Shown one piece after another: positions 5,621 through 22,314 of a stretch of DNA of 23,898 nt. Position 1 is the first letter of the stretch; every line of letters begins with the position of its first letter. The notes beneath the pieces were generated by a model. That model was not told the origin of the DNA. It searched no databases and worked only from the letters and a program-made list of their open reading frames with translations. The stretch covers positions 1 through 23,898 of the forward strand of contig JABSRS010000002.1 in the NCBI GenBank assembly GCA_013214885.1, given 5' to 3'. Both the position numbers and the translations under genes were made by a program. This DNA comes from Gammaproteobacteria bacterium. Lineage in GTDB: Bacteria > Pseudomonadota > Gammaproteobacteria > Enterobacterales > Psychrobiaceae.

Positions 5621-5630
5621 GGTTATAACC
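5621..5630. promoter_or_regulatory. Perfect palindrome GGTTATAACC in the divergent intergenic region
   Basis: A 10-bp perfect palindrome about 90 bp upstream of the CapA-domain start and 190 bp upstream of the phosphodiesterase start. Its TATAACC arm is shared with the palindrome upstream of the TonB-receptor gene, but here the arms overlap instead of being 3 bp apart. A regulator site is possible; a chance occurrence cannot be excluded. Confidence 0.25.
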
Positions 5631-5718
5631 TAGGGCTATGCTTGGTCGAAATAAAGCTATTGTGTTTGCTTAAATTGTCATGCTAGTTTAGATCTAATTT
5701 ATTTAATTTGTGGCCGTT

Positions 5719-7800: not shown

Positions 7801-7827
7801 TAATCAGGTAATAGCTATTATTGATTA
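7801..7827. terminator. AT-rich hairpin between convergent genes
   Basis: TAATCA (7801-7806) and TGATTA (7822-7827) enclose the perfect palindrome TAATAGCTATTA (7809-7820), giving a two-part stem that overlaps the LysR stop codon. It could act as a weak bidirectional terminator for the CapA-domain gene and the LysR gene, but it lacks GC pairs. Confidence 0.3.
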
Positions 7828-8712
7828 AGTTGGTTGCTCGCTAAGCTGGTTGACTATCTGGAGGAAATCAACAGCGGTGAGGGATAGGGCTTTATCTTCA
7901 ATATAGAGTGCTTTTAGGTTGAAATTCAAGGCGGGTTCAATGGTGGCAATGGCAACATTGTCACTCATGTTCCCTTGTGCGGTGTACTGGTCAATCACAC
8001 AAACTCCCATTTCTTGAGCGACCAAACGCGCTGCTAAAAAGTAGGTTTGAACCTTAATATTGGTATTAACCGCGATATCATCTTCGGCTAAACGACTCCA
8101 AATTAAATCACCGAGCGGGCCACTATCCCAGATCCCGATTACTTCATGGCTTTCCAACTGATCTAAGGTAATTGAAGTTGGTCGATGTGAAAATAAATCA
8201 ATTGGATACATCATCACTAACTGCGACTCGCAAATTGTCTGTTGTGTTACCCCTGGCAATGGCGGAGGTGAAAACATCAGTGCGAAGTCTATTTTATGTT
8301 CTAGCAATGCTTGCTGAACTTCATCGTTATGCATGGTTTGCAGGTTGATGTTGACATGAGGATGCTTTTTTTTATACATTGCGACGGCCTCTGGGATCAG
8401 GTTAAAACCCAATGCTGGAGTGAGTCCGATATTGATATTCCCCGTTTTTATTTTCTTTAAATTTATTGCTGAATTTCTCACAGACCTTATTTGTTTATAA
8501 ACCTTGTCGACCTCGCTAAATAACATCTGGGCTTCTCGGGTTGGGGTCAATCGACCCTTTACCCGATCAAACAGGGCAAAGCCGAGTTGCAGTTCGGCAT
8601 GGGCCAATACCTTGCTAACAGACGGCTGAGAAACATGTAAAAAGTTAGCGGCATTAGTAATTGAGCCTGTGACATAAATGGCGTGAAATACTTCGATATG
8701 ACGTAAGCGCAT
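7825..8712 (-). CDS. LysR-family transcriptional regulator (opine-regulator-like N-terminus)
   Basis: A 295-residue LysR-type regulator. The winged helix-turn-helix occupies residues 1-60 (SITNAANFLHVSQPSVSKVL, then LFDRVKGRLTPT), and the periplasmic-binding-protein-like effector domain about 90-290 (TGNINIGLTPALGFNLIPEA). The N-terminal wording (RHIEVFHAI, HAELQLGFALF) resembles the group that includes opine regulators NocR/OccR and LysR proteins found next to D-amino-acid deacylases; this subgroup placement is from memory. It is divergent from the TonB-receptor gene over 359 bp containing a perfect palindrome, the usual layout for autoregulation plus control of the neighbour. The ATG at 8712 has AGGA 8 nt upstream. 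The effector is unknown; a D-amino acid or N-acyl amino acid would suit the locus. Confidence 0.9.
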   Translation of the reverse strand: MRLRHIEVFHAIYVTGSITNAANFLHVSQPSVSKVLAHAELQLGFALFDRVKGRLTPTREAQMLFSEVDKVYKQIRSVRNSAINLKKIKTGNINIGLTPALGFNLIPEAVAMYKKKHPHVNINLQTMHNDEVQQALLEHKIDFALMFSPPPLPGVTQQTICESQLVMMYPIDLFSHRPTSITLDQLESHEVIGIWDSGPLGDLIWSRLAEDDIAVNTNIKVQTYFLAARLVAQEMGVCVIDQYTAQGNMSDNVAIATIEPALNFNLKALYIEDKALSLTAVDFLQIVNQLSEQPT

Positions 8713-9071
8713 AATAAGAGTCCTGTGATGAAAATAATAATGCCGACTATGACCACTGAATTGAATAATCGCTGAGAAATTTTTGGCGCGACGGTATACC
8801 TAGGATCATTGGTCATGGCTATCAAGATAACATCGCTAATAGCCATTGTATTTTAATATAAATTTAACATGATATAACCCAAGGTTATAGTATTGTAATA
8901 AAGGGGTAATTGTTTTTGATATTGAACCATGTCAAAACTATAACCGAAGTTTAATTGTTGCTGTATTAAGTTGTTGTGTTACAAAAATGTTTTTAATTAG
9001 TCATTTGTAAACTTAAAAAATACTGCGGCAAGATAGTATCTATTCTAATAAATATAACAACAGAGGCAGCT
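8713..9071. promoter_or_regulatory. Divergent regulatory region between LysR and TonB-receptor genes
   Basis: 359 bp without genes, AT-rich, expected to carry both divergent promoters. Its clearest element is the palindrome at 8873-8889, with a degenerate second copy at 8939-8955, 66 bp (about six helical turns) centre to centre. I cannot place -35/-10 hexamers with confidence. Confidence 0.6.
8873..8889. promoter_or_regulatory. Perfect 7-3-7 palindrome, candidate LysR operator
   Basis: TATAACC-CAA-GGTTATA is a perfect inverted repeat of LysR-box type (ATAAC...GTTAT with dyad symmetry) in the lysR/TonB-receptor intergenic region. A second site at 8939-8955 keeps the left arm TATAACC and a 3-bp spacer, with a degraded right arm (GTTTAAT), like the strong recognition site plus weaker activation site seen at many LysR targets. 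Confidence 0.6.
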
Positions 9072-11918
9072 ATGACTGTGAGATATATGAAAACTACATT
9101 AACCCCGAAATTTAAGTTAAAACACCTTAGCATTTGTGTCTTAGCCGCATTATCATCACAGCTGGTTAGCGCCGCAGAAACTGATAAAGAAAAATCCATT
9201 GAACGTATTACGGTGACGGGCTCGAATATTAAACGGGCCGCTGATGTCGGGTCATTACCTATCACCGCCTTAAGCGAGCAGGATATTGAAAATACCGCAG
9301 CGATGACTGGTGATGAACTATTGCGGTCGATCCCACAAATCGGTGAAGTTAACTTTGGCGGAGCGACTGGTAATGGTGGCGTTAATGACGCCCGTGGTGA
9401 TGTTTCATCGATCAACTTACGTGGTGTCGGCTCTGGTAATACGTTAACTCTGTTAAATGGTCGTCGTTTAGTGACTCACCCTGGCACCCAGTCAGAAAAT
9501 TTTGTGCCTGTTTCTACTGTCAATGCCAATACCTTACCTGTTTCTGGTTTGCGCTCACTGGAAGTTTTAAGAGATGGTGCTGCAGCAATTTACGGTTCTG
9601 ATGCTGTCGCTGGTGTGGTTAATTATCTGTTAAAAGATGATTATACTGGTTCTCGGGTCAGCTTATCTTATGGTGGTTCAGAAGGTACACCACTTGATGA
9701 AACCACCTTTAGTTATTTAACTGGTTTTGATTTCAACGAAGATAAGACTCACATCACCGCCTCTTTTACTTATTACAAGCGCAATGGCATGATGGCGAGT
9801 GAGCGAGCATATTCAGCTAGCCACGATCTAAGAAATTATCCTGGACTACCAGAGGCGTTTGTTGGCGATACTCAGTTGGATAATCGTTCGACGGCAACCC
9901 CTTGGGGCGATTTTAGTTCTGATACCCTCGGCAGATTCCATTTGCAACCAGATACCGAATCGGGTTGTGTCGTAGCGTTAGACGGCGGGATTTGTGCCGA
10001 CAGTGGTAGTTATCCCCGTGATCAACGTTTCGACCGTGGGACAACCCGGTCATTGGTTTCTGATGTTAATCGACTCAATTTCTATAGTTACATAACCCAT
10101 CAGATAAGCCCTGATTTAGAATTTTTCTCCGAACTAACGTATTACACCGCCGAGGCTAAAAGAACTCGCGAGCAAACGCATAACTTGAGTGCCCAACGCT
10201 TTAAAATTTCAGCTGATGCCGCTTTTAATCCATTTAATGAACAGGTCAGTTTGCGTAGCTACCGTGCTATTGATACAGGTCCTCGTAATATCGAAGTTGA
10301 TGATGACAGTTACCGGATCTTGGGTGGTTTAAAGGGGGAGTGGGGTAATTGGTATTGGGAAACTGCGGCATTTTATACTGCAGCTAAAACTAACGATCGG
10401 GCTAATCGGATCCAGGCTAGCGCATTCCAGGCGGCTATTAATAATACTGATGCGGCTTTAGCATATAACATCTTTACCGGTGGTGATATCAATAACCCTA
10501 ATAGCGGTGACAGCACCCTAAACCCGCAAAGTGTTATCGATCAGTTTATGGTTAATGTCTCACGTGATTCTAAAACCAGTTTGGCATCGGTTGACTTTAA
10601 GGTCAGTAATGGTGAGTTATGGAGTTTACCTGCTGGTGACGTCGGGGTTGCAATTGGTGTTGAATTTAGACATGAAACATTTGAAGATGACCGTGATGAT
10701 CTGTTAGATGGTCGTCATCCATTTGTTGACCAGGTAACTGGCGTACAGCTATCAGGCAGTGATGTGCTTGGGAGCAGCCCAACACCAGATTCAAAAGCAG
10801 ATCGCGATGTCAGCTCTGCCTTTGTTGAATTTTTGGTGCCACTAGTCGATGCTGGTGATCACTACGTTGAAATGCAGTTAGCGGCTAGGTATGAGAATTT
10901 CTCTGATGTCGGGGATGCGCTAAAACCAAAAGTTGCTCTATATTGGGAGACGTCAGAATGGTTAAGCTTACGCGCTTCATATGCTGGAGGTTTCCGTGCT
11001 CCAGGTTTACCTCAGGTATCAGCAGAAGGCGTGCCACGCTCAAATAACTTATATGATCCAGTACTCGATGATAGCTATGGCATTGTTGATATTCGCAGTG
11101 GTAATACCAATCTTAAACCTGAGGATGATACTAATACCTCATTTGGTTTTGTACTTGAGCCATTAGATGACCTAACTATCACTATGGATGTGTGGAAAAT
11201 TAAACAAAAAGATTTAGTAGGGATATTGCCTGGTTCTTCTCATCTGTTGTATGACTCATTGTTACGCAGTGAAGGTTCGAGCAACAAGGCAGTGATCCGC
11301 GATGCCACTACCAATGAAGTAATACAAATTAACAATGATTATTTGAACCTTGGGGTAAGAAATATCGCAGGGATAGATTTTAGTCTGATTTATGATTGGG
11401 AAACTAACTTTGGTGATTGGGAATTTACCTTAAACGCTGCTAAATTAACTAAATTTGAACAAGAAGCCGATGCTATTTCCGCTAAGCTGTTGGTGGCTCA
11501 GGCTGCGGGTAATTCAGCGGTTCCTAGCGACAGAACAGTTGCTGGCGCTGGTGATTTGATTAAGCAAAATGGTCGCCCAGAATTACGAGCGCGCGCCTCG
11601 CTAAACTGGCGCTACAATCAATGGGGCGCAGGAATTAGCTCTAAGTATGTTAGTGAGGTAATAGATACCAGCACTACCGCTAAGGTTGATGGTGAGATAA
11701 TAACCCTACCAGTGGCGAGCTATACTACCGTTAACTTGCATGCTGATTATCGATTTGAAGGCGATGGTTGGTTAAAGCGTAGCAAGATCCGCTTTGGAGT
11801 ACGAAATATTGGTGATAAAGAACCACCATTAGCGGATCAATTAGCTCATGGTTATTTCGGTTCACTACACTCAAATCGAGGTCGCTACTTTTATATTAGA
11901 ATGAGTAAGAAATTCTAA
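9072..11918 (+). CDS. TonB-dependent outer-membrane receptor
   Basis: A 948-residue outer-membrane transporter driven by TonB-ExbBD. It has a signal peptide (1 to about 34, ending LVSAA), a TonB-box-like segment (IERITVTGSNIKR, 43-55), a plug domain (about 57-190; LRGVGSGNTLTLLNGRRL and EVLRDGAAAIYGSDAVAGVVN are typical) and a long 22-strand barrel ending in the terminal Phe expected of a BAM substrate (MSKKF). The family imports siderophores, vitamins, sugars and peptides; the ITVTGSNIKR type is greatly expanded in Alteromonadales and often sits beside hydrolases for its substrate. Here it precedes a carboxypeptidase/D-aminoacylase lipoprotein, so a peptide or N-acyl amino acid substrate is inferred. 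The ATG at 9072 follows AGAGG; an in-frame ATG at 9087 is an alternative. A terminator follows at 11949-11974. Confidence 0.93.
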   Translation: MTVRYMKTTLTPKFKLKHLSICVLAALSSQLVSAAETDKEKSIERITVTGSNIKRAADVGSLPITALSEQDIENTAAMTGDELLRSIPQIGEVNFGGATGNGGVNDARGDVSSINLRGVGSGNTLTLLNGRRLVTHPGTQSENFVPVSTVNANTLPVSGLRSLEVLRDGAAAIYGSDAVAGVVNYLLKDDYTGSRVSLSYGGSEGTPLDETTFSYLTGFDFNEDKTHITASFTYYKRNGMMASERAYSASHDLRNYPGLPEAFVGDTQLDNRSTATPWGDFSSDTLGRFHLQPDTESGCVVALDGGICADSGSYPRDQRFDRGTTRSLVSDVNRLNFYSYITHQISPDLEFFSELTYYTAEAKRTREQTHNLSAQRFKISADAAFNPFNEQVSLRSYRAIDTGPRNIEVDDDSYRILGGLKGEWGNWYWETAAFYTAAKTNDRANRIQASAFQAAINNTDAALAYNIFTGGDINNPNSGDSTLNPQSVIDQFMVNVSRDSKTSLASVDFKVSNGELWSLPAGDVGVAIGVEFRHETFEDDRDDLLDGRHPFVDQVTGVQLSGSDVLGSSPTPDSKADRDVSSAFVEFLVPLVDAGDHYVEMQLAARYENFSDVGDALKPKVALYWETSEWLSLRASYAGGFRAPGLPQVSAEGVPRSNNLYDPVLDDSYGIVDIRSGNTNLKPEDDTNTSFGFVLEPLDDLTITMDVWKIKQKDLVGILPGSSHLLYDSLLRSEGSSNKAVIRDATTNEVIQINNDYLNLGVRNIAGIDFSLIYDWETNFGDWEFTLNAAKLTKFEQEADAISAKLLVAQAAGNSAVPSDRTVAGAGDLIKQNGRPELRARASLNWRYNQWGAGISSKYVSEVIDTSTTAKVDGEIITLPVASYTTVNLHADYRFEGDGWLKRSKIRFGVRNIGDKEPPLADQLAHGYFGSLHSNRGRYFYIRMSKKF

Positions 11919-11948
11919 TTATTGAGCGCAATTAAACTTAACTGTTCC

Positions 11949-11974
11949 AAGGCTCGATATATTCGAGCCTTTTT
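11949..11974 (+). terminator. Rho-independent terminator after the TonB-receptor gene
   Basis: AAGGCTCGA (11949-11957) pairs with TCGAGCCTT (11963-11971) around a TATAT loop, with T residues running to 11974. It separates the receptor from the fusion lipoprotein 36 bp later, so read-through or a separate promoter would be needed for the latter. Confidence 0.85.
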
Positions 11975-12010
11975 GTTATACCAATTTTATTATTATGACA
12001 GGAAAAAATT

Positions 12011-14653
12011 ATGCGATACCTATCAATTCTAATCGCCTTACTCTTGGTTGGTTGTAACAACCTTTCGAATGCTGACAACTCATGTCAGCAACCTGATTTA
12101 AATATCGAGTATGACTTTGACAATGCACGGGTGAATGAGTGTCGGCGGATCAGCGATAATCTGATCGTCATTACTATTACTCCAGAAAATAGCCCGATCA
12201 ATAATAGTCCGTGGTATGCGTTTAAGGCATCCTCATTGACTGAAAAAACTATCGAGGTGGTGATTAATTATCGTGGTGGCGATCATCGCTATCAACCAAA
12301 ATTAACCTTGGACGGTAATAATTGGCAAGCGATCGAGCATCAAGCTGACAAAGACTCGGTGCGCTTTAATTTGTCGCTGAGCAGCAAACCAGTCACTGTT
12401 GCCGCGCAAGAAATCATTACCAATGATGATTATCGGCAGTGGATGCAGCAATTAGCACGACATGACTCGGTCAGTTATACCACACTGGGGCTGTCGACCC
12501 AGCAACGCGAGATTGGCCAGCTTGAAATCACTGGTCAAGGTAATGAATGGTTGGTTATTTTGGGGCGACAACACCCACCTGAAGTGACTGGGGCTTTGGC
12601 GTTGTTGCCATTTGTTGAATATTTGCTGCAAGATAACGCACAGACTCGGGCATTTAGGCAGCGTTTTAATATCTTGGTTATTCCAGATCTAAACCCCGAT
12701 GGCGTTGCGTTGGGTAATTGGCGCCATAATGCCAACGGTGTTGATTTAAATCGAGACTGGAAAGAGTTTAAGCAAATTGAATCATGGTTAGTTAGAGACA
12801 AGCTAGTGTCAATTACTCAGCAGGGTGGCAAAATAGTTTATGCCGTTGATTTCCATTCGACCCGCCACAATGTCTTTTACACGATGCCTGGGGATTATGG
12901 GTTAAGTCCTGCACTACTTTCACAGCAGTGGTTAGGTAACTTGGCTCAGCAGGCCGCTCCTTTTGTAGTAACCCAAAAACCAGGTAATAATCCAGATAAA
13001 GGGGTCTTTAAACAATACATCGCCGATGCATTTGGGGCCCATGCTATTACCTATGAAATGGGCGATCATACCGATCGTACGGTCATCACCGATATTGCAA
13101 ACCAAGCCAGTGAAACTCTAATGGCCACTTTATTAGCGACCCCTGCTGCTGCGTTCGAAAAAACTATGCCGTTGTCAGTTGATCTGTTAATAAGTGCGAG
13201 CAAGGTATTTGTCGGAGATGGCAGTGCTGGCAAGGCCCTCGACATTGGGATTTGCGGTGAATTGATATGCGCAATTAGCGAGCGCGGTGAGGTTGATTAT
13301 CAGGCCGCACGCCGAATAACTAGTGAAGATTTAATCGTTAGCCCAGGTTTTATCGATGCTCATACCCATAGTCTACAAGAGCTACTGAGTAAGGATGAAA
13401 ATGCCAATCTTAATTATCTGACCCAGGGTGTCACAACCGTGGTCAATGGTAACGATGGCAGTGGTCCAGTCGATATAAAGGCAATGACTCAGCGTTTATT
13501 AAATAACGGCATCGGCACTAATACGGCATTACTAGTTGGTCATGGCAGCATTAGAAAGCAAGTGTTGGGCTTGGCCGAACGCCATGCCAAGACTGATGAA
13601 ATTAAACAAATGCAGGCACTGACTGAGCAGGCGATGAGTGATGGTGCTATTGGATTGTCGAGCGGGCTCTATTATGTGCCTGGTATCTTTGCTGATACTG
13701 CTGAAGTGGTGGCATTGGCAAAAGTTGCGGCTAAATATAATGGCATATATGACACTCACTTACGCGATGAAAGTACCTTCAATATTGGATTTGGTGAAGC
13801 CGTTGCCGAGGCCATCGAAATTGCTAAGCAGGCAGATATTCATTTACACATCGCCCATATCAAAGCATTAGGGGTTGATGTGTGGGGGCAAAGTGTCCCG
13901 ATCATCAAACAGATTGAAGCCGGGCAACAGCAGGGCGTTAGTATTTCAGCCGATCAATACCCATGGCAGGCTTCTGGTACTCATTTACGCAGTGCAGTAG
14001 TCCCTAAATGGGTCATGGCTGATTCAATAACAGCCTTCCATCAACGATTAAATGATCCGAAATTGTTACCGAAAATTCGCGCTGAGATTATTGAGAATAT
14101 TCGCCGCCGCGGTGGTGCTGAGGCTTTACTGTTTACTGTTAGCGACGATCTGGCTCTGGTAGGAAACACGTTAGAACAAGTGGCCAAATTACGTCAGCAA
14201 TCAGTAGTTGAAACGGTGATTGAGTTAGTCCAGGGCAATAAGATCAGAGTTGCCTCGTTTAATATGTCGGCGACTGATATTGAAAACTTCATGGTCAAGC
14301 CTTGGGTTGTTACTTCATCTGACGGTACCGATGGCCATCCCAGAAAGTATGCCAGTTTCCCTAAGAAATATCGCCAATATGTGGTTGAAAAAAAGCTGTT
14401 GTCGTTAGCTCAGTTTATAATGCAAAGCAGTGCAAAGACTGCGCAAGTCCTTAAACTTAAAAAACGCGGTCTGTTGGCTGTTGGAAACTATGCCGATATC
14501 GTGATGTTTAACCCTGATAAATTTAGCGATCAAGCAACTTTCAGTCAATGGAACACCCTGTCACAAGGCGTTGAATACGTGATGGTCAATGGTCAGATTG
14601 CTATCGATGGTGGAAAATTTAACAATGTGTTTAATGGCAAGGTAGTTAAATAA
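12011..14653 (+). CDS. Lipoprotein fusing M14 zinc carboxypeptidase and D-aminoacylase (N-acyl-D-amino-acid deacylase)
   Basis: An 880-residue two-enzyme lipoprotein. The lipobox ends at C15 (LLLVGC), so it is membrane-anchored and probably periplasmic. Residues about 135-380 are an M14-type metallocarboxypeptidase: Zn ligands H188 and E191 (RQHPPE), H282 (DFHSTRH); NPDG (228-231), R238 and GVDLNRDW (243-250); catalytic E349 (TYEMGDH). Residues about 388-880 are an amidohydrolase-superfamily D-aminoacylase: H451/H453 (GFIDAHTHS), H583 (DTHLRDES), H616 (HIAHIKALG), D771 (SSDGTDG) and a C-terminal return of the composite beta-domain. The conserved Cys of the GNCG motif is Asp482 here (GNDG). 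M14 enzymes include MpaA, which cuts the gamma-D-Glu-DAP bond of muropeptides; the deacylase would free a D-amino acid from an N-acyl group. Sequential action on one peptide is inferred. Substrates are untested; the domain calls are firm. Confidence 0.92.
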   Translation: MRYLSILIALLLVGCNNLSNADNSCQQPDLNIEYDFDNARVNECRRISDNLIVITITPENSPINNSPWYAFKASSLTEKTIEVVINYRGGDHRYQPKLTLDGNNWQAIEHQADKDSVRFNLSLSSKPVTVAAQEIITNDDYRQWMQQLARHDSVSYTTLGLSTQQREIGQLEITGQGNEWLVILGRQHPPEVTGALALLPFVEYLLQDNAQTRAFRQRFNILVIPDLNPDGVALGNWRHNANGVDLNRDWKEFKQIESWLVRDKLVSITQQGGKIVYAVDFHSTRHNVFYTMPGDYGLSPALLSQQWLGNLAQQAAPFVVTQKPGNNPDKGVFKQYIADAFGAHAITYEMGDHTDRTVITDIANQASETLMATLLATPAAAFEKTMPLSVDLLISASKVFVGDGSAGKALDIGICGELICAISERGEVDYQAARRITSEDLIVSPGFIDAHTHSLQELLSKDENANLNYLTQGVTTVVNGNDGSGPVDIKAMTQRLLNNGIGTNTALLVGHGSIRKQVLGLAERHAKTDEIKQMQALTEQAMSDGAIGLSSGLYYVPGIFADTAEVVALAKVAAKYNGIYDTHLRDESTFNIGFGEAVAEAIEIAKQADIHLHIAHIKALGVDVWGQSVPIIKQIEAGQQQGVSISADQYPWQASGTHLRSAVVPKWVMADSITAFHQRLNDPKLLPKIRAEIIENIRRRGGAEALLFTVSDDLALVGNTLEQVAKLRQQSVVETVIELVQGNKIRVASFNMSATDIENFMVKPWVVTSSDGTDGHPRKYASFPKKYRQYVVEKKLLSLAQFIMQSSAKTAQVLKLKKRGLLAVGNYADIVMFNPDKFSDQATFSQWNTLSQGVEYVMVNGQIAIDGGKFNNVFNGKVVK

Positions 14654-14680
14654 TTTAGAAAATACAGATAAAACACATAT

Positions 14681-14718
14681 AAAAGGCCCCAACACTCATC
14701 GAGTTTTGGGGCCTTTTT
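14681..14718. terminator. Bidirectional terminator between the fusion lipoprotein and gltS
   Basis: AAAAGGCCCCAA (14681-14692) pairs perfectly with TTGGGGCCTTTT (14706-14717); after one mismatch, ACTC (14694-14697) pairs with GAGT (14701-14704) around a 3-nt loop. The flanking A and T tracts make it functional on both strands, suiting the convergent genes. Confidence 0.95.
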
Positions 14719-14733
14719 ATCGGTCGATATCGT

Positions 14734-15936
14734 TTAGCTAATAAAGCTCAAATAAAACTGAATAACCAAGGCGTTGGTTATATCAATAAAGAATGCGCCA
14801 ACTAGCGGTACCACTAAAAATGCCTGTGGCGAAGGACCATGACGAGCAACCAACGCTTCCATATTAGCCACCGCTGTCGGTGTTGCCCCTAAGCCAAAAC
14901 CACAATGTCCGCCAGCCATAATCGCTGCATTATAATTTTTACCCATTATTCTAAAGGTAATAAAATAAGCGAACAGCATCAGCACTATGGCTTGAGCCAA
15001 GATAATCATAACCATTGGTCCAGCTAAGTTAGCCAGTTCCCATACTTTTAACGACATCAGTGCCATCGCCAAGAAGATCGACAGTGCCATCGTGCCCCAC
15101 AAGTCGATGCAGGCACGGCTAATTGAATACAACTTAGAAAAATCACATAGATTGGTTGCTACTACGCCAAAAAGTAATGGCATTAAAAACGATGGTAACA
15201 CTAAGCCCGCAGACTTTAGTGCGGTATAAGCTAGGTCACCAGCAACCATACAAGTCAAAATAACAAATAGGGTTTCCATCATTTTTTTCGGAGTCACTAA
15301 ATCGTGATCTTCTGGATTAAAAGTGACGGTGTCATCTAATTCTTCGTGGAATTCATCGGCTTTTAAATTGTAGCGTTTGATTAATCGTTTGCTAACAGGT
15401 CCACCAACTAGTCCACCTAAAACCAGCCCCATGGTGGCAGCTGCCATGGCTAGTTCGAATATCCCACCAGGCATATTGTATTGTTCGATAAATAAATCGG
15501 CATAAGTAGCACCATTGCCATGACCTCCTGATAAGGTAACTGATCCAGCAATTAACCCCAATATTGGATCCATGCCACTGGCCATCGCCAGAGATATACC
15601 TAACGCATTTTGGATAAATAAATAACCCGTTGCCACTGCCAAAAATAACACCACTTTTGGGCCGCCTTTAAGCAATAACTTAAAACTTGCTCCAAGACCA
15701 ACTGTGGTGAAAAAGATCGTCATCAATGGGCCTTTAAGACTCATATCAAAGATAACGTGAAAATTAAACCAGCTGTGTGCCAGTGCTGCCAGCAACGAAA
15801 AAACGATGCCTCCAACAACCGGCTCTGGAATATTATTATTGCGTAAAAATGCAATTTTGCTGTTACAGAAGTAACCTGCAAAAAGAATTAATAGTGCAAC
15901 TAGTAATGTTTCGATAATGCCAACTTCAATATCCAT
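14734..15936 (-). CDS. gltS: Sodium/glutamate symporter, ESS family
   Basis: A 400-residue inner-membrane protein matching GltS in length (E. coli 401) and in its two inverted five-helix halves. Each half carries the re-entrant-loop signature: SGGHGNGATYAD (136-147) and AGGHCGFGLGATPTAVAN (341-358), separated by a hydrophilic cytoplasmic loop (about 185-218). GltS imports glutamate with Na+; the E. coli protein accepts both L- and D-glutamate. The gene follows the PLP decarboxylase by 54 bp on the same strand, so uptake and decarboxylation are probably co-expressed, and it ends at a shared bidirectional terminator. An AGAGGA ribosome-binding sequence lies somewhat far (about 12 nt) from the ATG. 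Other ESS substrates cannot be excluded. Confidence 0.93.
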   Translation of the reverse strand: MDIEVGIIETLLVALLILFAGYFCNSKIAFLRNNNIPEPVVGGIVFSLLAALAHSWFNFHVIFDMSLKGPLMTIFFTTVGLGASFKLLLKGGPKVVLFLAVATGYLFIQNALGISLAMASGMDPILGLIAGSVTLSGGHGNGATYADLFIEQYNMPGGIFELAMAAATMGLVLGGLVGGPVSKRLIKRYNLKADEFHEELDDTVTFNPEDHDLVTPKKMMETLFVILTCMVAGDLAYTALKSAGLVLPSFLMPLLFGVVATNLCDFSKLYSISRACIDLWGTMALSIFLAMALMSLKVWELANLAGPMVMIILAQAIVLMLFAYFITFRIMGKNYNAAIMAGGHCGFGLGATPTAVANMEALVARHGPSPQAFLVVPLVGAFFIDITNALVIQFYLSFIS

Positions 15937-15990
15937 GGTAGGTCATGTTCCTCTTGTTATTATTATTTGGGGTGGGACCAATCGAAGCCG

Positions 15991-17298
15991 TTACAAATGA
16001 TGGTTGTAACGGCATGGGAATGACATTTTGCTCAAGACATCTTGTAGTGTGTCAGCCTGGCGGATGCATTTTATAGTTAAGTGGTCCTCAATACCAGACA
16101 CCGCATAAACTGCCACCCGAGGTAGACTATTATAATCAAAATGATTACTGAAATAATAACCACCAGTATCATGAACGATTACATAATCGTTAGGCTGTAA
16201 CTTTGGTAGGGGGCGGTCGACGCAAATTAAATCACCAGCGAAACAGCATGGCCCGGCAACGTCTGTGACGACTACATCTGATATGGCCGCGGTTCTTTGC
16301 TGACCGTTGCTTAAGTAGCCAGTAACCCGAATTGGCCACGACTTAGGTAAAAATGCGGTGCGAGTGATAATTTGTGCCCCGGCATGGGTGGTGGCAATAT
16401 GGCGGCCACCAGAGGTTTTGGTGTATTCGACGCGAGTGATAATGAAACCATTCTTGGCCACGATAGCCCGACCAAATTCTGTTTTTACCTGATATTTACC
16501 ACTAAATAAAGTCGGTACTGCTGCCGCTAATACGGCTGCATATTCTTTAAACGAGGGGGTGATTTTATCCGAGCTAAAATTAACAGGTAAACCACCACCA
16601 ATATCTAAACGAATAATTTGTTGATGACCGATGCTGTCATTTATTTGCTCGGCCAATTGGGTCAGGGCAGCAACGCCATTGGCCATTAATTCGAGCGAAC
16701 AGCCTTGTGAACCACTGTGGGTATGTAGACTATTTAACCAAGGACGCTGTTGATAAATATTGATTAAATCTTGTTTGTTATTGCCATCAGCCAAGGCATA
16801 ACCAAACTTTGAGGTTGCCGTTGCAGTGCTGGTGGAACTTATCTCGCCACCACCGATTTGCGGATTTATCCGAAAACCGATCACCGATTTAGATGCTGGA
16901 AACTCAAGCATTAACTGATCTATCCGCGCTAGTTCTTGCAAGTTATCGATATTGAGCGAGATGTCGTTTTTAATGCAAGTGCGCAAGTCGTCAAGTGTTT
17001 TAGCTGGTGAGTCGTAAATAATTTCATGAGCTTTAAACCCAGCAGCTAATGCAATAGTTAACTCCCCAGGGCTGGCCACTTCTGCTCCCATACCATATTG
17101 ACGTAAGGCACTGAGCACTGCTACTAACGCGTTAGCCTTAACCGCAAAGGTATGATAAAAATTATCAGGAAATGCAGCATATAGATTGTTTACCGTTTCC
17201 TTTAATGCATCAAAATCCATGATGCCAATTGCGGTTAACCTATCGTCGATGATCTGAATATCGAGTGCTTTTTTTATTATCTGGTCTTTTCTGGTCAT
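15991..17298 (-). CDS. Fold-III PLP decarboxylase, DAP-decarboxylase-like; candidate (D-)glutamate decarboxylase
   Basis: A 435-residue alanine-racemase-fold (group IV) PLP decarboxylase. It has the Schiff-base K54 (FAVKAN), the cofactor-stacking H194 (HTHSGSQ), a Gly-rich phosphate site (DIGGGLP, 232-238), EFGR (274-277, for the usual EPGR), a C-terminal active-site Cys (GPCCFAGD, 349-356) and Y381 (DTGGYYF). In ODC (CD) and DAPDC (CES) the residue after the Cys is acidic and binds the substrate's distal amine; here it is F353. That argues against ornithine, lysine or DAP and for a side chain without an amine. DAPDC acts on the D-centre of meso-DAP, Salmonella DokD on D-Orn/D-Lys, and BtrK on a gamma-glutamyl-ACP, so D-Glu to GABA is chemically plausible. 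It is probably in an operon with gltS. It is not the biosynthetic lysA by context. The ATG has GAAAG about 8 nt upstream. Confidence 0.85.
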   Translation of the reverse strand: MTRKDQIIKKALDIQIIDDRLTAIGIMDFDALKETVNNLYAAFPDNFYHTFAVKANALVAVLSALRQYGMGAEVASPGELTIALAAGFKAHEIIYDSPAKTLDDLRTCIKNDISLNIDNLQELARIDQLMLEFPASKSVIGFRINPQIGGGEISSTSTATATSKFGYALADGNNKQDLINIYQQRPWLNSLHTHSGSQGCSLELMANGVAALTQLAEQINDSIGHQQIIRLDIGGGLPVNFSSDKITPSFKEYAAVLAAAVPTLFSGKYQVKTEFGRAIVAKNGFIITRVEYTKTSGGRHIATTHAGAQIITRTAFLPKSWPIRVTGYLSNGQQRTAAISDVVVTDVAGPCCFAGDLICVDRPLPKLQPNDYVIVHDTGGYYFSNHFDYNSLPRVAVYAVSGIEDHLTIKCIRQADTLQDVLSKMSFPCRYNHHL

Positions 17299-17783
17299 AT
17301 GACTTTCTTTCTATAGTTTATATGCTTAGTCAGTGCCTATTTGCCCTGACTGGATGAGTTCACAAAAATCCTTTATCAAAATAAATAGCTTATTTTAGCT
17401 TGGGGTAGTTTGTGATACCCGTGAGTGTTTATCGCTAGCGACCGCGAGATGAGCCTAGTTATAACCACGGTTAAAACACCGTTCATCATCATTCTTGTTC
17501 TTCTGAGATTGTGATCGTAGGGGCGGGCTAGTTTTTGAGCTGATAGGCTGCTTAAATGTGGTTAAAACTGGTAACTTCCAAGATTTAATATTCATAGTTG
17601 ACTCCGCTTAGTTGACTACTTATTTGTAACAAAGCCACAATCATTTTGTAATTGATAAAAATTCGTAGTGCTATAACCTTTAGCTATGCTCTAAATAAAG
17701 CTATAAAATTCAGAGTTCTATGATGTTGAAGATGTTGGTTACTCAAAACTAATTGCAATGCTGAATAATCACAATCGATTTGA
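17299..17783. promoter_or_regulatory. Leader/regulatory region upstream of the decarboxylase-gltS unit
   Basis: 485 bp between two minus-strand genes. It holds the 46-codon ORF at 17455-17595. Between that ORF and the decarboxylase lie three inverted repeats: GGGTA/TACCC (17403-17420), AAAATAA/TTATTTT (17378-17396) and AGTCAG/CTGACT (17328-17351). Upstream of the small ORF are TATAACC-TTT-AGCTAT (17672-17687), which resembles the left arm of the palindrome at 8873, and two TTTGTAA direct repeats 22 bp apart (17623, 17645), similar to half of the inverted repeat at 18759. These are candidate binding sites for the two LysR proteins. Confidence 0.4.
17455..17595 (-). CDS. Small unrecognised ORF (46 aa) upstream of the decarboxylase
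   Basis: An ATG-started frame of 46 residues (begins MNIKSWKLPVLTTFKQPISS, ends FNRGYN, stop TAG) preceded by GGAG with 6-nt spacing, one of the better Shine-Dalgarno sequences in the window. The product is polar and basic with one Cys, has no signal peptide or membrane segment, and matches no family I know. It lies between the second LysR gene and the decarboxylase, whose start is 156 bp downstream. It could be a leader peptide, a small regulatory protein or a chance frame. Confidence 0.4.
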   Translation of the reverse strand: MNIKSWKLPVLTTFKQPISSKTSPPLRSQSQKNKNDDERCFNRGYN

Positions 17784-18725
17784 TTATGACTTGTCAGCTC
17801 GATTAATTGATTGGCGTAGGCACTGGTTAAAGATATTGATGATCAGTTCGTTGGGATTTTTTTTGCGATGGATCGCTTTAAAGGTATTAGTGTAGCCGTA
17901 GGTTTGTTCGAACAGTGGGCGCATTTGATCTTGAAGTTTGAGATTGGTAACAAGATGATGAGGTAAGATCCCCAAATAATGACCGCTGAGGATTAGTGTT
18001 GCGCGAGCCTCCTGATGATGAGCTTTGGCTTGGATATTCCATAACTTCATATCTGGGTGTGCTTCGCGTCCAGGCATTAGACGTGGCGATTCGACAAACT
18101 TATATTGTTGTAATTTTTGTGGGTTGATATCTGATTGCACAACGTTATAAAGCGGGTGGCCGCTGGCGCAATAGAGTAGCATCTGCTCGTCGAATAATGG
18201 CAAAATTTCTAGTTCAGGGTAATCGTGAGGTAGCACCGTAATACCGACATCTATTTGCTTGCTCAGTACCGCAGTGGTCACTTCATCCGAGCCCATGGAG
18301 CTGATTTGAACTTTGACATCTGGTGCAAACGTTGAAAAGTTATCAATGGCGGCGACAATGCAAGAGTTGTGAGCACTAAGCATATGCTCGGCAAATCCAA
18401 GATGAAGTCGGCCAAAAATCTTGCTGTGTGAGCGATTTACCTGATTGCGAAACTGGTCGATTGCAGCTAACAGAGTCAGCGTCGCGTCAAAAACCACTTT
18501 GCCTTGTTCGGTCAGACTAAATCCAGCCCGACCACGTTGACAAAGCCGCATGTCGAGACGTTTTTCCAGATCAGCTATATAGTTAGAAATAGTCGAGTTG
18601 GCTAGATTGAGCTCGATTTCAGCGGCACTAAAGCCTCCAGCATCAACCACGGTTTTAAACACTCTTAATAAGCGTAAATCGACGTCGGCTAACTGACCTG
18701 GTATTGCGGCTTTTTTTAGTCCCAT
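17784..18725 (-). CDS. LysR-family transcriptional regulator
   Basis: A 313-residue LysR regulator with an N-terminal extension of about 14 residues before the winged HTH (residues 15-73: LRLLRVFKTVVDAGGFSAAE, then STISNYIADLEKRLDMRLCQ) and an effector-binding domain (about 105-300, GRLHLGFAEHMLSAH). It is divergent from the class III aminotransferase gene over 169 bp that contain a perfect 9-8-9 inverted repeat, so it most likely controls the aminotransferase-gabD unit. By position it could also control the decarboxylase-gltS unit downstream. The coinducer is unknown; GABA or glutamate would fit the neighbours. It is only distantly similar to the LysR at 7825, so the two are not a recent duplication. 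Confidence 0.9.
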   Translation of the reverse strand: MGLKKAAIPGQLADVDLRLLRVFKTVVDAGGFSAAEIELNLANSTISNYIADLEKRLDMRLCQRGRAGFSLTEQGKVVFDATLTLLAAIDQFRNQVNRSHSKIFGRLHLGFAEHMLSAHNSCIVAAIDNFSTFAPDVKVQISSMGSDEVTTAVLSKQIDVGITVLPHDYPELEILPLFDEQMLLYCASGHPLYNVVQSDINPQKLQQYKFVESPRLMPGREAHPDMKLWNIQAKAHHQEARATLILSGHYLGILPHHLVTNLKLQDQMRPLFEQTYGYTNTFKAIHRKKNPNELIINIFNQCLRQSINRADKS

Positions 18726-18758
18726 TTTCTACTCATAAACTGGTAAATTTTCAATAGT

Positions 18759-18784
18759 ATTACATTTAAATATCCAAATGTAAT
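18759..18784. promoter_or_regulatory. Perfect 9-8-9 inverted repeat, candidate LysR operator
   Basis: ATTACATTT (18759-18767) and AAATGTAAT (18776-18784) are exact inverse complements, separated by 8 bp, with arm centres 17 bp apart. The element sits 34 bp from the LysR start and 110 bp from the aminotransferase start, where a LysR recognition/activation site is expected. It is too AT-rich and has no T tract in the right place to be a terminator. Confidence 0.6.
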
Positions 18785-18894
18785 CCCACTGAAGTGATTA
18801 TATAAACAAATGAATTAATCCGCTATTGTTTGTTCATTACAACAATAATCGCTGCCAGTTAGGCGTGATACAGCCATTTAAAGAGAGGCAACGT

Positions 18895-20247
18895 ATGAGC
18901 TCAATCATCTATCCGACCACTAATCTTCAACATATTGAAACTCTGACTCTGGAGCGTGGCCAGGGAGTATATGTTTATGATAACAATGGTAAAAAGTATC
19001 TGGAAGCACTAGCTGGACTGTGGTGTACTTCTTTGGGTCATAACAATCGTGAGCTGATTGAAGCTGCCACAGAGCAAATGAGTAAGCTGTCATACTCACA
19101 TATGTTTGGCGGCAAGACTCATCAGGTTGGGATTGATTTGGCTGAAAAAATTTCGGCGATGGTGCCAGTGTCAGATGCTAAAGTATTCTTTGGTAACTCT
19201 GGCAGCGATGCTAATGATAGCCACATAAAAATGCTGCGCTATTACTTTAATGCCATAGGTAAGCCGCAAAAATATAAAATCATTGCCCGTGAACGCTCAT
19301 ATCATGGGGTCACCGTGGCGGCTGCGTCATTAACAGGCTTGCCGCCAAACCACACTCATTTCGATCTGCCATTTGAAGCACTCGGAGTACTTAGAACCGA
19401 TGCGCCCCATTATTATCGCAACGCTAAGCCAGGTGAGAGTGAAAGTGAATTTGTCGAGCGCATTACCAATAATCTTGAGCAGCTTATTTTGCGTGAGGGA
19501 GCTGACACTATTGCTGCTTTTATTATTGAACCAATTACAGGGGCCAGCGGTGTAATTGTGCCTCCCAATGGTTATCATGAGAAGGTTCAGGCGATTCTTA
19601 ATAAATACGATATTCTGTTATGGGCCGACGAAGTGATCACTGGTTTTGGTCGAACTGGTAATGATTTTGGTTGCACAACTGTTGGTATCGTTCAGCCAGA
19701 TATGATGACGCTTGCTAAGCAACTTTCATCGGCTTATATGCCAATTAGTGCCTCGGTGATCCGGGGGGATATGTATCAGGCGATGATCGAACCCAGTGTT
19801 AAAGTTGGCGTATTTGGTCATGGTTATACCTACTCTGGCCATCCTGTTGCCTGTGCAGTAGCCTTGAAGACATTAGAGATTTACCAACGTGATAACATCT
19901 TTGGCCATGCGGCTAAAGTCGGGGCATACATGCAACAGCGGTTGGCGCAATTTAATGATCATCCATTGGTGGGGGTAGTGCGAGGCGCCGGGATGATTGG
20001 GGCAATTGAATTGGTGGCAAATAAGTCTACAGGTCAGGCGTTTAAGGATGGTAATGTCGGAGCTTATGCGATGCAAGCATGCCAAAATAATGGCATGATC
20101 ACGCGTGCGGTGGCTGGATCGTCGTTAGCCTTTTGCCCGCCATTGATAGTTACAGAGTCGCAAATTGATGAAATGGTTGAAAAGACCGCTAAATCACTTG
20201 ATCAAACTTTAGATTTTGTAATCAAACATAATCTACTGGTCAACTAA
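18895..20247 (+). CDS. Class III omega-aminotransferase (candidate GABA:pyruvate transaminase)
   Basis: A 450-residue PLP fold-I class III aminotransferase. Features are GNSGSDAND (100-108, phosphate site), SYHGVT (135-140), D245 in LLWADEVITGFGRTG (binds the pyridine N) and the Schiff-base K275 (MTLAKQLSSAYMPIS). The sequence is of the polyamine/omega-amino-acid:pyruvate type (SpuC, plant GABA-TP, Vibrio and Chromobacterium omega-transaminases) rather than the E. coli GabT type. Followed by gabD, it most probably converts GABA to succinate semialdehyde with pyruvate or a similar acceptor; beta-alanine or putrescine are alternatives. The frame is open to 18826, but the ATG at 18895 has a strong AGAGAGG ribosome-binding site and fits family N-termini. 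It shares an intergenic region with the divergent LysR. Confidence 0.9.
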   Translation: MSSIIYPTTNLQHIETLTLERGQGVYVYDNNGKKYLEALAGLWCTSLGHNNRELIEAATEQMSKLSYSHMFGGKTHQVGIDLAEKISAMVPVSDAKVFFGNSGSDANDSHIKMLRYYFNAIGKPQKYKIIARERSYHGVTVAAASLTGLPPNHTHFDLPFEALGVLRTDAPHYYRNAKPGESESEFVERITNNLEQLILREGADTIAAFIIEPITGASGVIVPPNGYHEKVQAILNKYDILLWADEVITGFGRTGNDFGCTTVGIVQPDMMTLAKQLSSAYMPISASVIRGDMYQAMIEPSVKVGVFGHGYTYSGHPVACAVALKTLEIYQRDNIFGHAAKVGAYMQQRLAQFNDHPLVGVVRGAGMIGAIELVANKSTGQAFKDGNVGAYAMQACQNNGMITRAVAGSSLAFCPPLIVTESQIDEMVEKTAKSLDQTLDFVIKHNLLVN

Positions 20248-20263
20248 GCCTAATACTATTTGG

Positions 20264-20297
20264 CAAATACAAGGAAAGTTAATCTTCCTTATATTTG
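20264..20297 (+). other. Intercistronic hairpin between aminotransferase and gabD
   Basis: CAAATA-C-AAGGAA (20264-20276) and TTCCTT-A-TATTTG (20285-20297) form a 12-bp stem with a single C/A mismatch and an 8-nt loop. No U tract follows. It lies 17 bp after the aminotransferase stop and 39 bp before the gabD start, and could act as an mRNA-stabilising element, processing site or partial attenuator. Confidence 0.65.
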
Positions 20298-20336
20298 ATA
20301 CTCAATAGCACAGATGAATTTTGTTGGAAGCTAATA

Positions 20337-21791
20337 ATGCATAAATTAAAAGATAGTCAATTATTAAAATGTTGTTCTTATATCAATGGTAGCTGGCATA
20401 GCAGCGATTCACAATTTGATGTGTTAAACCCAGCCAGTGGCGCTGTGGTTGCGGTGGTAAGTAATGCTGGTGCGCCAGAAACTGAATTAGCGGTTAGATC
20501 GGCCAAAGCGGCTTTAGCAATGTGGTCGGCTAAATCTGCCAATGAACGTGCAGTGTTAATGCGGAAATGGTTTGACCTGATGATGGAAAACCAAGATGAT
20601 CTAAGTCGAATTCTCACCTTGGAACAGGGCAAGCCGTTAGGCGAAGCTAAAGGTGAAATAGCTTATGGCGCCGCATTTATTGAATGGTTTGCCGAAGAGG
20701 GTAAGCGTGTTTATGGTGATATTATTCCATCAGCTGCAGGTGATAAGCGGATCCTGGTCTTTAAACAGCCCGTCGGGGTGGTGGCTTCAATTACGCCCTG
20801 GAATTTCCCCAATGCGATGATTGCAAGAAAAGCCGCTGCTGCTCTGGCCGCTGGTTGTACTTTTGTAGTTCGCCCTGCGGCTCAAACGCCACTGTCAGCT
20901 TTGGCTATGGCTGAATTAGCTGAGCGTGCGGGGATCCCTGCGGGGGTCTTTAATGTCGTGGTTGGTGAAGATGCTCGAGGGATGGGCAAAGTGTTAACTC
21001 AACATCCTGATGTCGCTAAATTTACGTTTACTGGCTCTACCGCTGTCGGAAAATCTTTAATCGCTCAGTGTGCTTCTACCGTTAAAAAGGTATCAATGGA
21101 ACTAGGTGGCAACGCGCCATTTATTGTATTTGATGATGCTGATATTGATGCTGCGGTTCAAGGTGCTATTGATTCAAAGTATCGTAACGCTGGACAGACT
21201 TGCGTTTGTACTAATCGGATCTTTGTCCAACAAGATGTATTGGAACAGTTTACTGATAAATTTACGATGGCGGTGGCTAAACTTACTATTGGCAACGGCT
21301 TGGATGGTGCGCAAATTGGGCCAATGATCACCAGTTCAGCGGTATCTGATGTTGAAAAGCTGGTGGCGGATTCAATTGCTGCTGGGGCAACAGTAATCTT
21401 TGGTGGTAAGCGAGACCCTGCTGGAGAGAACTTCTATCAGCCAACAATTTTAACCAATGTTACTAATGATATGCCTATTGCCGCCAATGAAATTTTTGGC
21501 CCCGTGTCACCAATCATTAGCTTTACCGATGAGGCGGAGGTGATTGCTTTAGCCAACAGCACTGAATATGGCTTGGCATCATATTTCTATTCTCGAGATA
21601 TCGGTCGAATTTGGCGAGTATCTGAAAGATTAGAATTTGGTATGGTCGGGGTTAACGAGGGAATTATTTCTAATCCCGCCGCACCATTTGGTGGCATAAA
21701 ACAATCAGGCAGTGGTCGTGAAGGTTCTAAGTATGGTTTGGATGACTACCTAGAAATAAAATATGTCTGTATTGGCGGCTTGAACAAGTAA
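20337..21791 (+). CDS. gabD: Succinate-semialdehyde dehydrogenase GabD
   Basis: Oxidises succinate semialdehyde to succinate with NAD(P)+, the last step of GABA breakdown; cytoplasmic tetramer. The 484 residues align along their whole length with E. coli GabD (482). Catalytic N156 (PWNF), E255 (MELGG) and C289 (GQTCVC) are present, with C291 giving the redox-switch Cys pair known in SSADH. R164 (MIARK) and R283 (KYRNAGQ) appear to match the arginines that bind the substrate carboxylate, which supports succinate semialdehyde over other aldehydes. An oddity is that the near-invariant Lys of the KPA..TP cofactor motif is R179 (VVRPAAQTP). The in-frame TTG at 20295 lies in the hairpin; the ATG at 20337 has GGAAG 6 nt upstream and is the start. 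It is probably co-transcribed with the aminotransferase (89-bp gap). Confidence 0.95.
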   Translation: MHKLKDSQLLKCCSYINGSWHSSDSQFDVLNPASGAVVAVVSNAGAPETELAVRSAKAALAMWSAKSANERAVLMRKWFDLMMENQDDLSRILTLEQGKPLGEAKGEIAYGAAFIEWFAEEGKRVYGDIIPSAAGDKRILVFKQPVGVVASITPWNFPNAMIARKAAAALAAGCTFVVRPAAQTPLSALAMAELAERAGIPAGVFNVVVGEDARGMGKVLTQHPDVAKFTFTGSTAVGKSLIAQCASTVKKVSMELGGNAPFIVFDDADIDAAVQGAIDSKYRNAGQTCVCTNRIFVQQDVLEQFTDKFTMAVAKLTIGNGLDGAQIGPMITSSAVSDVEKLVADSIAAGATVIFGGKRDPAGENFYQPTILTNVTNDMPIAANEIFGPVSPIISFTDEAEVIALANSTEYGLASYFYSRDIGRIWRVSERLEFGMVGVNEGIISNPAAPFGGIKQSGSGREGSKYGLDDYLEIKYVCIGGLNK

Positions 21792-21872: not shown

Positions 21873-22310
21873 ATGATAAAAAATTATCCGCTCTATAGTG
21901 CTAACGTATCGTCATCGCCATTAATGGTGGCGGTGTATCGCTACGTTGCATTATCAATTGTTGGCATCTTAGCGTTGGTGTTATGGCTGTCGCAAGTACT
22001 GCCTGTGGCCATCGTGATAAGCTCTGTAGTGAACTATTTGTTGTTTGAATACAGTTTACGCTGGTTAAATGTCGATTTAAAAGAGCTCTGTTTTAATGAT
22101 GTTGCTTTGATTGTTGTTCGTCAATCCAATGACTGCTTTAGTGGCGAAATAACCGATAATAGCTTAGTGTGTGATTGGTTTTGTCTGCTGATGATTAAAA
22201 AGCATGGTCAAAGCGGCTGGCGTTGGCAAATTATTTGGCGTGACATGATTGACGATAATGCCTACCGTCGCTTATCTCGAGTGGTTCGTATTAAGCGACG
22301 ATTGATTTGA
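21873..22310 (+). CDS. YgfX-like small membrane protein
   Basis: A 145-residue protein with two adjacent hydrophobic segments (about 22-42 and 44-62) and a soluble C-terminal half. The layout and the tail pattern (SGWRWQIIWRDMIDDNAYRRLSR) resemble YgfX/CptA (E. coli LWLAADSMDEAEWRDLRRIL), a partner of SdhE (YgfY) once described as a toxin of a toxin-antitoxin pair that affects FtsZ and MreB. In many gammaproteobacteria ygfX follows sdhE directly and lies near nadB; here nadB is present (convergent, 4-bp gap) but no sdhE lies upstream, where gabD is found instead. Similarity is judged by eye only. No ribosome-binding site is visible and a perfect hairpin touches the start codon. Confidence 0.65.
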   Translation: MIKNYPLYSANVSSSPLMVAVYRYVALSIVGILALVLWLSQVLPVAIVISSVVNYLLFEYSLRWLNVDLKELCFNDVALIVVRQSNDCFSGEITDNSLVCDWFCLLMIKKHGQSGWRWQIIWRDMIDDNAYRRLSRVVRIKRRLI

Positions 22311-22314
22311 TTAT

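Follow-up and report, generated by a model that had tools for sequence, protein, structure and literature searches.

Described systems and the proposed pathway

D-Glutamate (D-Glu) and D-alanine are basic parts of peptidoglycan, which is counted as part of the ocean's refractory dissolved organic matter, and the proteins DgcN and DgcA convert D-Glu to L-glutamate (L-Glu) (accessible part of PMC10845958). On a plasmid of Pseudoalteromonas donghaensis, the genes are arranged in the order TonB-dependent receptor, amidohydrolase, M14 peptidase, NhaC-type transporter, dgcR, dgcN and dgcA, and strain CF6-2 has the same order. The LysR-type regulator DgcR is said to respond to D-Glu, Pseudoalteromonas CF6-2 reportedly being the strain studied. 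Here, we describe a locus with a regulator of this type in a DNA stretch of 23,898 nucleotides (the window; contig JABSRS010000002.1 of assembly GCA_013214885.1) from a marine gammaproteobacterium of the family Psychrobiaceae. The locus shares with the DgcR-DgcN-DgcA cluster the LysR regulator and its predicted box, the TonB receptor, a D-aminoacylase, a peptidase of the M14 family (not of the same type) and a transporter (NhaC or GltS). It lacks, however, the L-Glu-forming pair DgcN-DgcA and codes instead for a decarboxylase of fold type III that depends on pyridoxal phosphate (PLP), termed DC in the following.

Quite probably, the locus is a regulon for the acquisition and catabolism of D-Glu under control of the DgcR-type LysR protein, in which D-Glu is decarboxylated to 4-aminobutyrate (GABA). 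The TonB receptor and an exported lipoprotein (M14 peptidase fused to D-aminoacylase) would take in glutamyl compounds and liberate D-Glu, which the symporter GltS would import. DC would strip the alpha-carboxyl group from the D centre, yielding GABA and CO2. An aminotransferase of the PRK06105 type (AT) would turn GABA into succinate semialdehyde, and GabD would oxidize the latter, with succinate as the end product. A large NAD-dependent glutamate dehydrogenase (NAD-GDH), which many relatives encode beside DC, would deaminate the L-Glu that arises from GABA transamination. DC probably founds a family of natural D-Glu decarboxylases, providing a second route of D-Glu utilization that is exchanged with DgcN-DgcA under one regulator; its activity and its D stereochemistry are predicted from sequence. 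A preliminary description of the locus had already proposed release of D-Glu, its import, decarboxylation to GABA by a fold-III enzyme and conversion to succinate. This proposal gains support from the regulator and its boxes, the exchange with dgcN-dgcA, the active-site residues of DC and the GABA transaminases encoded near it in relatives.

The classical GABA shunt consists of the fold-I enzyme GadB, GabT and GabD. The window likewise ends with an aminotransferase and a succinate-semialdehyde dehydrogenase, but its GABA would arise from D-Glu via a fold-III enzyme. A literature search, from which most subscription journals were missing, brought up no natural D-Glu decarboxylase. If the proposal is true, this would be a new enzyme activity, which would account for the use of D-Glu in alteromonads whose dgcR locus is devoid of dgcN-dgcA. 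Many database entries called diaminopimelate decarboxylase would then need correcting, and an enzyme would become available for the production of GABA from D-Glu.

Exchange of the decarboxylase and DgcN-DgcA beside one regulator type

The regulator LysR1 (7825-8712, minus strand) and P. donghaensis DgcR have 59% identity over 291 residues, and homologues of LysR1 from Colwellia loci with DC are up to 74% identical to DgcR. DC is encoded at 15991-17298 (minus strand). The exchange was counted in 295 genomes from the family of a Colwellia genome, sampled evenly from a larger group. A dgcR-type gene (42-72% identity) is present in 65 of these genomes, DC in 15 and dgcN in 65. Within 6 kb of the 65 dgcR-type genes, dgcN was found in 44 cases and DC in 13, never both, and neither in 8. 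All but one of the 15 genomes with DC contain dgcR; in one DC genome, dgcN is 9.4 kb away from DC.

For a wider view, 61 DC loci were collected (51 from a genome scan, 5 from plasmids and 5 from stretches of genomes), and their partner genes were sought by tblastn (1e-25). Many of them are related to one another, and some are short, so that counts of partner genes are lower bounds. None of the 61 codes for dgcN or dgcA according to tblastn at the loci (no dgcN search was made across the entire genome that holds the window). Judged by gene arrangement, the fold-III decarboxylase stands in the place of dgcN-dgcA beside the same type of regulator.

The eight dgcR-type loci with neither DC nor dgcN within 6 kb are L074-L078 and L084-L086, of which L075 holds a short dgcN-like open reading frame (ORF; 37% identity). 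Candidate readings for such loci are a third route of D-Glu utilization or an enzyme encoded elsewhere.

DgcR-type boxes

A palindrome search was applied to 27 promoters upstream of DC, which are of the alteromonad type and were picked by hand from the 62 available (61 loci and the window). These promoters were represented by 300 bases, and the window's own DC box falls outside them. The palindrome ATAAC-N5-GTTAT precedes DC in 20 of the 27 promoters and dgcN in 9 of 14, compared with at most 2 in shuffled sets. When one mismatch is allowed, the numbers rise to 26/27 for DC and 13/14 for dgcN.

The 17 sites used to build a 19-base matrix all come from loci of the dgcNA type (14 upstream of dgcN and 3 upstream of TonB). 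With this matrix, the window shows three strong sites. The best of these (22.4 bits, 8874-8888, an exact palindrome) is located between LysR1 and the TonB receptor gene, the next (21.4 bits, 5625-5639) is 70 bp upstream of a gene for a CapA-like protein, and the third (19.4 bits, 17673-17687) lies 374 bp before the start codon of DC. The fourth-best site scores only 7.6 bits. Across 200 shuffled windows, sites reaching these three scores occur with means of 0, 0.005 and 0.01, the single highest score being 22.0. The one-mismatch palindrome on its own is not rare (3 in the window versus 1.22 expected); it takes the full matrix to single out the three window sites. When DC promoters are compared with random 300-base pieces of the loci, 26 of the 27 exceed the 95th percentile (12.9) and 3 exceed the 99th (25.4), but this comparison is weak because the random pieces contain real boxes. 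Genome-wide, the exact palindrome occurs at 13 places versus 11 for a control pattern, which is no excess in the own genome. One of the 13 is the window's, and four others were scored, the best reaching 14.8 and 13.0 bits.

A census of boxes (at least 14 bits, at most 450 bp upstream) covered 78 loci, namely the 51 scan loci plus 27 more, among which five likewise contain DC. Boxes were found before genes for TonB (37), DC (33), NhaC (21), NAD-GDH (14) and dgcN (14), and further before LysR1 (11), CapA (6), GltS (4), M14 (4) and unlabelled ORFs (13); divergent genes, such as the pairs DC/GDH and LysR1/TonB, can have one box in common. With a DgcR-type LysR protein and predicted sites before catabolic genes, the window has the regulatory features of a DgcR regulon, though not its dgcN-dgcA genes.

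Family membership and active site of the decarboxylase

DC matches PF02784 and PF00278. The preliminary description had named as a refutation of its proposal that DC might be the sole lysA of the genome, and this is not the case. The LysA model TIGR01048 gives DC 239.9-240.2 bits, below its cut-off of 297.9, and gives 533.4 bits to the genome's real LysA, which is encoded on another contig and is 25% identical to DC; an assignment as lysA was rejected on these grounds. Assignment as DokD was also rejected, because model NF052544 yields 95.2 bits (cut-off 700) and active-site residues differ. The own genome encodes four fold-III decarboxylases. One of the others (contig C4, 400 residues, L066:1471-2673) overlaps a gene that, by eye, resembles deacylases of the AstE/AspA type.

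The genome scan returned 53 loci, 51 of which (L009-L059) code for proteins at least 46% identical to DC and represent the DC subfamily; the remaining two (21-23% identity) were excluded. The nearest genome is a metagenome-derived member of the Psychrobiaceae, with a DC that is 92% identical. In a plasmid collection, the best 40 of 265 records fall into two groups split by a gap in identity, five actinobacterial records with 45.7-52.0% and the other 35 with at most 30.3%. Gammaproteobacterial carriers include Colwellia, Thalassotalea, Pseudoalteromonas, Aliiglaciecola, Alteromonas and Woeseiaceae; Ruegeria is among the alphaproteobacterial carriers, and Nocardiopsis, Leucobacter, Brevibacterium, Streptomyces and [Zimmermannella] bifida represent the Actinobacteria. 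By sequence, DC is a distinct subfamily across Gammaproteobacteria, Alphaproteobacteria and Actinobacteria. Where its members are named in the source annotations, they are mostly called diaminopimelate decarboxylase.

The active site was compared in 177 DC proteins (the window, 56 loci and 120 database proteins). Lys54, His194, the GGG loop (234-236), Glu274, Gly276, Arg277, Cys352 and Asp356 are invariant in all of them. DC thus carries the signature of PLP-dependent fold-III amino acid decarboxylases, with the PLP lysine, the histidine, the GGG loop, E-x-GR and the cysteine in GPxCxxxD (motif definitions partly from general knowledge). In an alignment with structures from the Protein Data Bank (PDB), R249, R285 and E315 of the Thermotoga maritima diaminopimelate decarboxylase (TmDAPDC) align with Arg277, Arg313 and Phe353 of DC. 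In TmDAPDC, E315 recognizes the distal amine of diaminopimelate (DAP), while R285 and R249 bind its distal carboxylate (accessible part of PMC8277567). DC shares with LysA the fold, the PLP lysine, the catalytic cysteine and both of these arginines, which are kept in 177/177 proteins, but differs at the position of the distal-amine glutamate, which is Phe in 176 proteins and Tyr in one. Since both arginines are kept and the amine-binding glutamate is lost, the pocket appears suited to a side chain that ends in a carboxylate and has no amine. Engineered TmDAPDC variants (E315X) have lost the same glutamate and accept D-amino acids with only a carboxylate; they are man-made, however, and D-Glu is used only by E315Q and only weakly (PMC8277567, same part).

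DokD (D-ornithine/D-lysine decarboxylase) shares fold III with DC and, by its PDB name, acts at a D centre. Its substrates have a distal amine, and its family has Asp at the position following the cysteine and in the Arg313 column, unlike DC. BtrK also shares fold III and, by its PDB name, has a glutamyl substrate, but this is a carrier-bound L-glutamyl group in the making of an antibiotic, and the protein is only 20% identical to DC in the fold match. Three residues that do not vary within DC, His305, Pro318 and Arg324, are replaced in the LysA and DokD proteins compared and may shorten the DC pocket. An AlphaFold model of DC has a mean pLDDT of 78.8 and a pTM of 0.81, with low confidence in loops 311-321, 353-355 and 384-392. 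Its best structural matches are diaminopimelate decarboxylase and DokD, with BtrK at rank 33. By sequence, DC is closest to diaminopimelate decarboxylase, which acts at a D centre.

Conserved gene neighbourhood

Partner genes in the 61 DC loci are those for LysR1 (29), TonB (29), GltS (27), M14 (24), NAD-GDH (19), D-aminoacylase (18), the NhaC-type transporter (16), gamma-glutamyltranspeptidase (9), CapA (7), GABA transaminase (5), a GabD-like protein (5, one of which, in L034, is merely 30% identical), PRK06105 aminotransferase (2) and a TAXI receptor (2). A single-copy gene is expected in a given 20 kb of a 4-Mb genome in about 1 of 200 cases, and by this reckoning the clustering around DC exceeds chance. 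The preliminary description had also named a lack of clustering in relatives as a refutation, and this did not come true, since the genes do cluster there. AT-GabD is seldom linked to DC. The 14 dgcN loci contain genes for TonB (8), NhaC (8), D-aminoacylase (7), M14 of the window type (4) or the Pseudoalteromonas type (3), CapA (2) and GltS (1).

In the Actinobacteria [Zimmermannella] and Leucobacter, the genes for DC, the NhaC-type transporter and D-aminoacylase are in a row, and two Woeseiaceae have M14, DC, NhaC and D-aminoacylase in a row. In Embleya, an M55 D-aminopeptidase gene (L070:10296-11126) directly follows DC and is itself followed by an amino acid permease gene. Such partners in distant groups tie DC to the release of D-amino acids. 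An NhaC-type transporter gene is found within or adjoining the cluster in L011, L014, L018, L019, L037, L059, L044 and L045, and its product is a candidate carrier of D-Glu or N-acyl-D-Glu. Gamma-glutamyltranspeptidase is encoded near DC in L027, L028, L034, L035, L041 and L067, among others, which suggests gamma-glutamyl compounds as a source.

The proposed GABA branch

AT is encoded at 18826-20247 and GabD at 20295-21791 (both plus strand), divergent from a second LysR gene, LysR2 (17784-18725, minus strand; PF00126/PF03466). AT is a class-III aminotransferase of the PRK06105 subfamily (NF004767, 622.7 bits, cut-off 517). GabD passes the cut-off of TIGR01780 (682.6 bits versus 646.35) but misses the stricter equivalog PRK11241 (708 of 828). 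No match to the GabT model TIGR00700 was found in the own genome, of which the window is one of 601 contigs and which is estimated to be 88.9% complete. We propose from the sequence relationship that the PRK06105-type aminotransferase takes the place of the GABA transaminase. Among 50 genomes (49 with DC and the own one), 41 have a TIGR00700 match.

A GABA transaminase gene is within 10 kb of DC in five of the 61 loci (L013, L033, L047, L050 and L052), which belong to three classes. The transaminases pass the cut-off of TIGR00700, that of L050 being assigned by 94% identity to the one of L047. In Nocardiopsis (L047) and in L050, gabT, gabD and DC follow one another on one strand. In Marinibacterium (L033), DC-GDH faces gabD-gabT. 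Brevibacterium (L052) has the transaminase gene near DC, and the locus of Pseudoalteromonas denitrificans (L013) consists of DC-GltS, a LysR gene, gabD, gabT and CapA. Genes of these kinds also adjoin one another in the window, but their order differs from that in L013, with AT-GabD upstream of DC and not beyond GltS; the PRK06105 aminotransferase replaces GabT, and GabD is 78% identical.

The regions around gabT were inspected in 20 of the 41 genomes with this gene, hand-picked as alteromonad-type genomes plus that of L009. In all 20, gabD adjoins gabT, and 18 also have a LysR2-like gene there; the window's GabD is 76-84% identical to the adjacent gabD product in 18 of the 20. LysR2 itself distantly resembles (28-35% identity) the LysR protein encoded beside gabD-gabT. 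None of the two best matrix sites per region reaches 14 bits before gabT or gabD. This grouping of gabT, gabD and a LysR2-like gene indicates that the GABA genes of most relatives lie apart from DC and are probably induced by GABA. By gene order, the placement of AT-GabD beside DC in the window is an exception among relatives.

A GadB search in the own genome returned one fold-I homologue, on contig C92. It is a fold-I group II decarboxylase that, like those in L062 and L107, looks PanP-like.

Alternative functions of the decarboxylase

Several observations weigh against D-Glu decarboxylation to GABA within one regulon. A GabT or AT transaminase gene is near DC in just 7 of the 61 loci, no box of at least 14 bits precedes GabT, AT or GabD in the 78 loci, and AT-GabD in the window is likewise without a DgcR box. 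In L009, with the 92% identical DC, the AT and GabD genes are not beside DC, and gabD-gabT is on another contig. No partner gene of those sought was found in 12 of the 61 loci, some of which are short. The genomes of the exchange count are related, so that its numbers exceed those of independent events, and across all groups, 16 of the 49 genomes with DC encode a dgcN homologue at some place, which speaks against strict exclusion at the genome level. The D-aminoacylase half of the lipoprotein remains below the cut-off of NF006560 (179 of 340 bits). TmDAPDC E315F is inactive on D-Glu (accessible part of PMC8277567), so that Phe353 alone cannot explain the use of D-Glu. Finally, fold-III enzymes are known for both L and D centres, and an NAD-GDH near DC would suit an enzyme converting D-Glu to L-Glu equally well.

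The last point leads to the view that DC is a fold-III racemase, a one-step equivalent of DgcN-DgcA that passes L-Glu on to NAD-GDH. Alanine racemase shares fold III, DC replaces a pair of proteins that forms L-Glu, NAD-GDH is encoded near DC in 19 of the 61 loci, and a box precedes GDH in 14 of the 78, often in the intergenic region shared with DC. Yet NAD-GDH fits a decarboxylase as well, because GABA transamination makes L-Glu, and the 14 dgcN loci, which also yield L-Glu, showed no GDH gene. Moreover, the decarboxylase cysteine is invariant in 177/177 proteins, and the proteins closest to DC in sequence and fold are decarboxylases, diaminopimelate decarboxylase and DokD first. A racemase would also leave the GABA transaminase beside DC in three classes unexplained; no GabT or AT transaminase gene was found in the 14 dgcN loci, a contrast to the 7/61 DC loci that may arise from small numbers. 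We thus regard a racemase as unlikely. It is also improbable that DC decarboxylates L-Glu in an ordinary GABA shunt, with the D-aminoacylase neighbours serving other compounds. GltS and NAD-GDH do handle L-Glu, the fold-III protein BtrK bears the name L-glutamyl-[BtrI] decarboxylase, and gamma-glutamyltranspeptidase is near DC in 9 of the 61 loci. This reading is opposed by the DgcR-type regulator with its boxes, by the exclusion of dgcN beside that regulator, by D-aminoacylase or D-aminopeptidase partners that extend to Actinobacteria and by the sequence proximity of DC to the D-centre enzyme diaminopimelate decarboxylase.

Two further readings change the substrate. Two arginines without the acid would suit any omega-carboxylate, so that DC might act on D-Asp (yielding beta-alanine) or D-2-aminoadipate, with the product taken by the omega-aminotransferase, PRK06105 aminotransferases being broad in substrate. 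We consider this very unlikely, given GltS, a dehydrogenase of the succinate-semialdehyde type above its subfamily cut-off, the equivalog GABA transaminases that relatives encode and the resemblance of the regulator to that of the D-Glu genes. The prevailing label of DC relatives as diaminopimelate decarboxylase would agree with a second or diverged DAP, ornithine or lysine decarboxylase in polyamine or lysine metabolism. The model scores for LysA and DokD, the real LysA elsewhere in the genome and the loss of the acid that binds the distal amine make this highly improbable.

Putative uptake genes and further genes of the window

All eight genes named in the preliminary description were located within 7825-21791, and its statement that no unrelated gene lies between them proved correct; the sole further ORF of at least 100 residues is antisense (140 residues, 8993-9415). 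The TonB-dependent outer-membrane receptor (9072-11918, plus strand; PF00593, PF07715) is 40% identical to the receptor encoded beside dgcNA in P. donghaensis. The lipoprotein (12011-14653, plus strand; PF00246, PF07969) has a lipobox, LLLVGC, read by eye, and consists of an N-terminal M14 metallocarboxypeptidase and, from about residue 385, a D-aminoacylase-type amidohydrolase. The latter part is 46% identical to the amidohydrolase beside dgcNA in P. donghaensis, while the M14 protein of that locus is of another type than the window's. In the PDB, the amidohydrolase part matches D-aminoacylase (1m7j, 1e-50) and N-acyl-D-Glu deacylase (3gip, 4e-42), which denotes similarity only; the M14 part matches 4a37 (2e-16), its best structures being M14 carboxypeptidases other than MpaA. 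The peptidoglycan stem peptide that the preliminary description put forward as the source of D-Glu, by analogy with MpaA, an M14 enzyme cutting gamma-D-Glu-DAP, is thus a speculative candidate. The sodium/glutamate symporter GltS (14734-15936, minus strand) scores 444.5 bits with TIGR00210 (cut-off 310.75).

The CapA-like protein (PGA_cap; 5710-7788, plus strand; PF09587, 187.6 bits), which the preliminary description had overlooked, is probably an additional member of the regulon, considering the box upstream of its gene and its recurrence in related loci. Its N-terminus resembles an export signal by eye. A CapA-like gene adjoins gabT-gabD in L113, L114, L115, L124 and L125; the box before it scores 20.5-21.6 bits in the first four and 12.3 in L125, where a further site of 19.4 bits lies beyond the LysR gene. 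One idea for the role of CapA is poly-gamma-glutamate. Beyond the cluster, the region 21873-23898 codes for a CptA-like toxin-component family protein (PF07254, 28.3 bits, cut-off 27.3) and for an enzyme that, judged by eye, resembles NadB.

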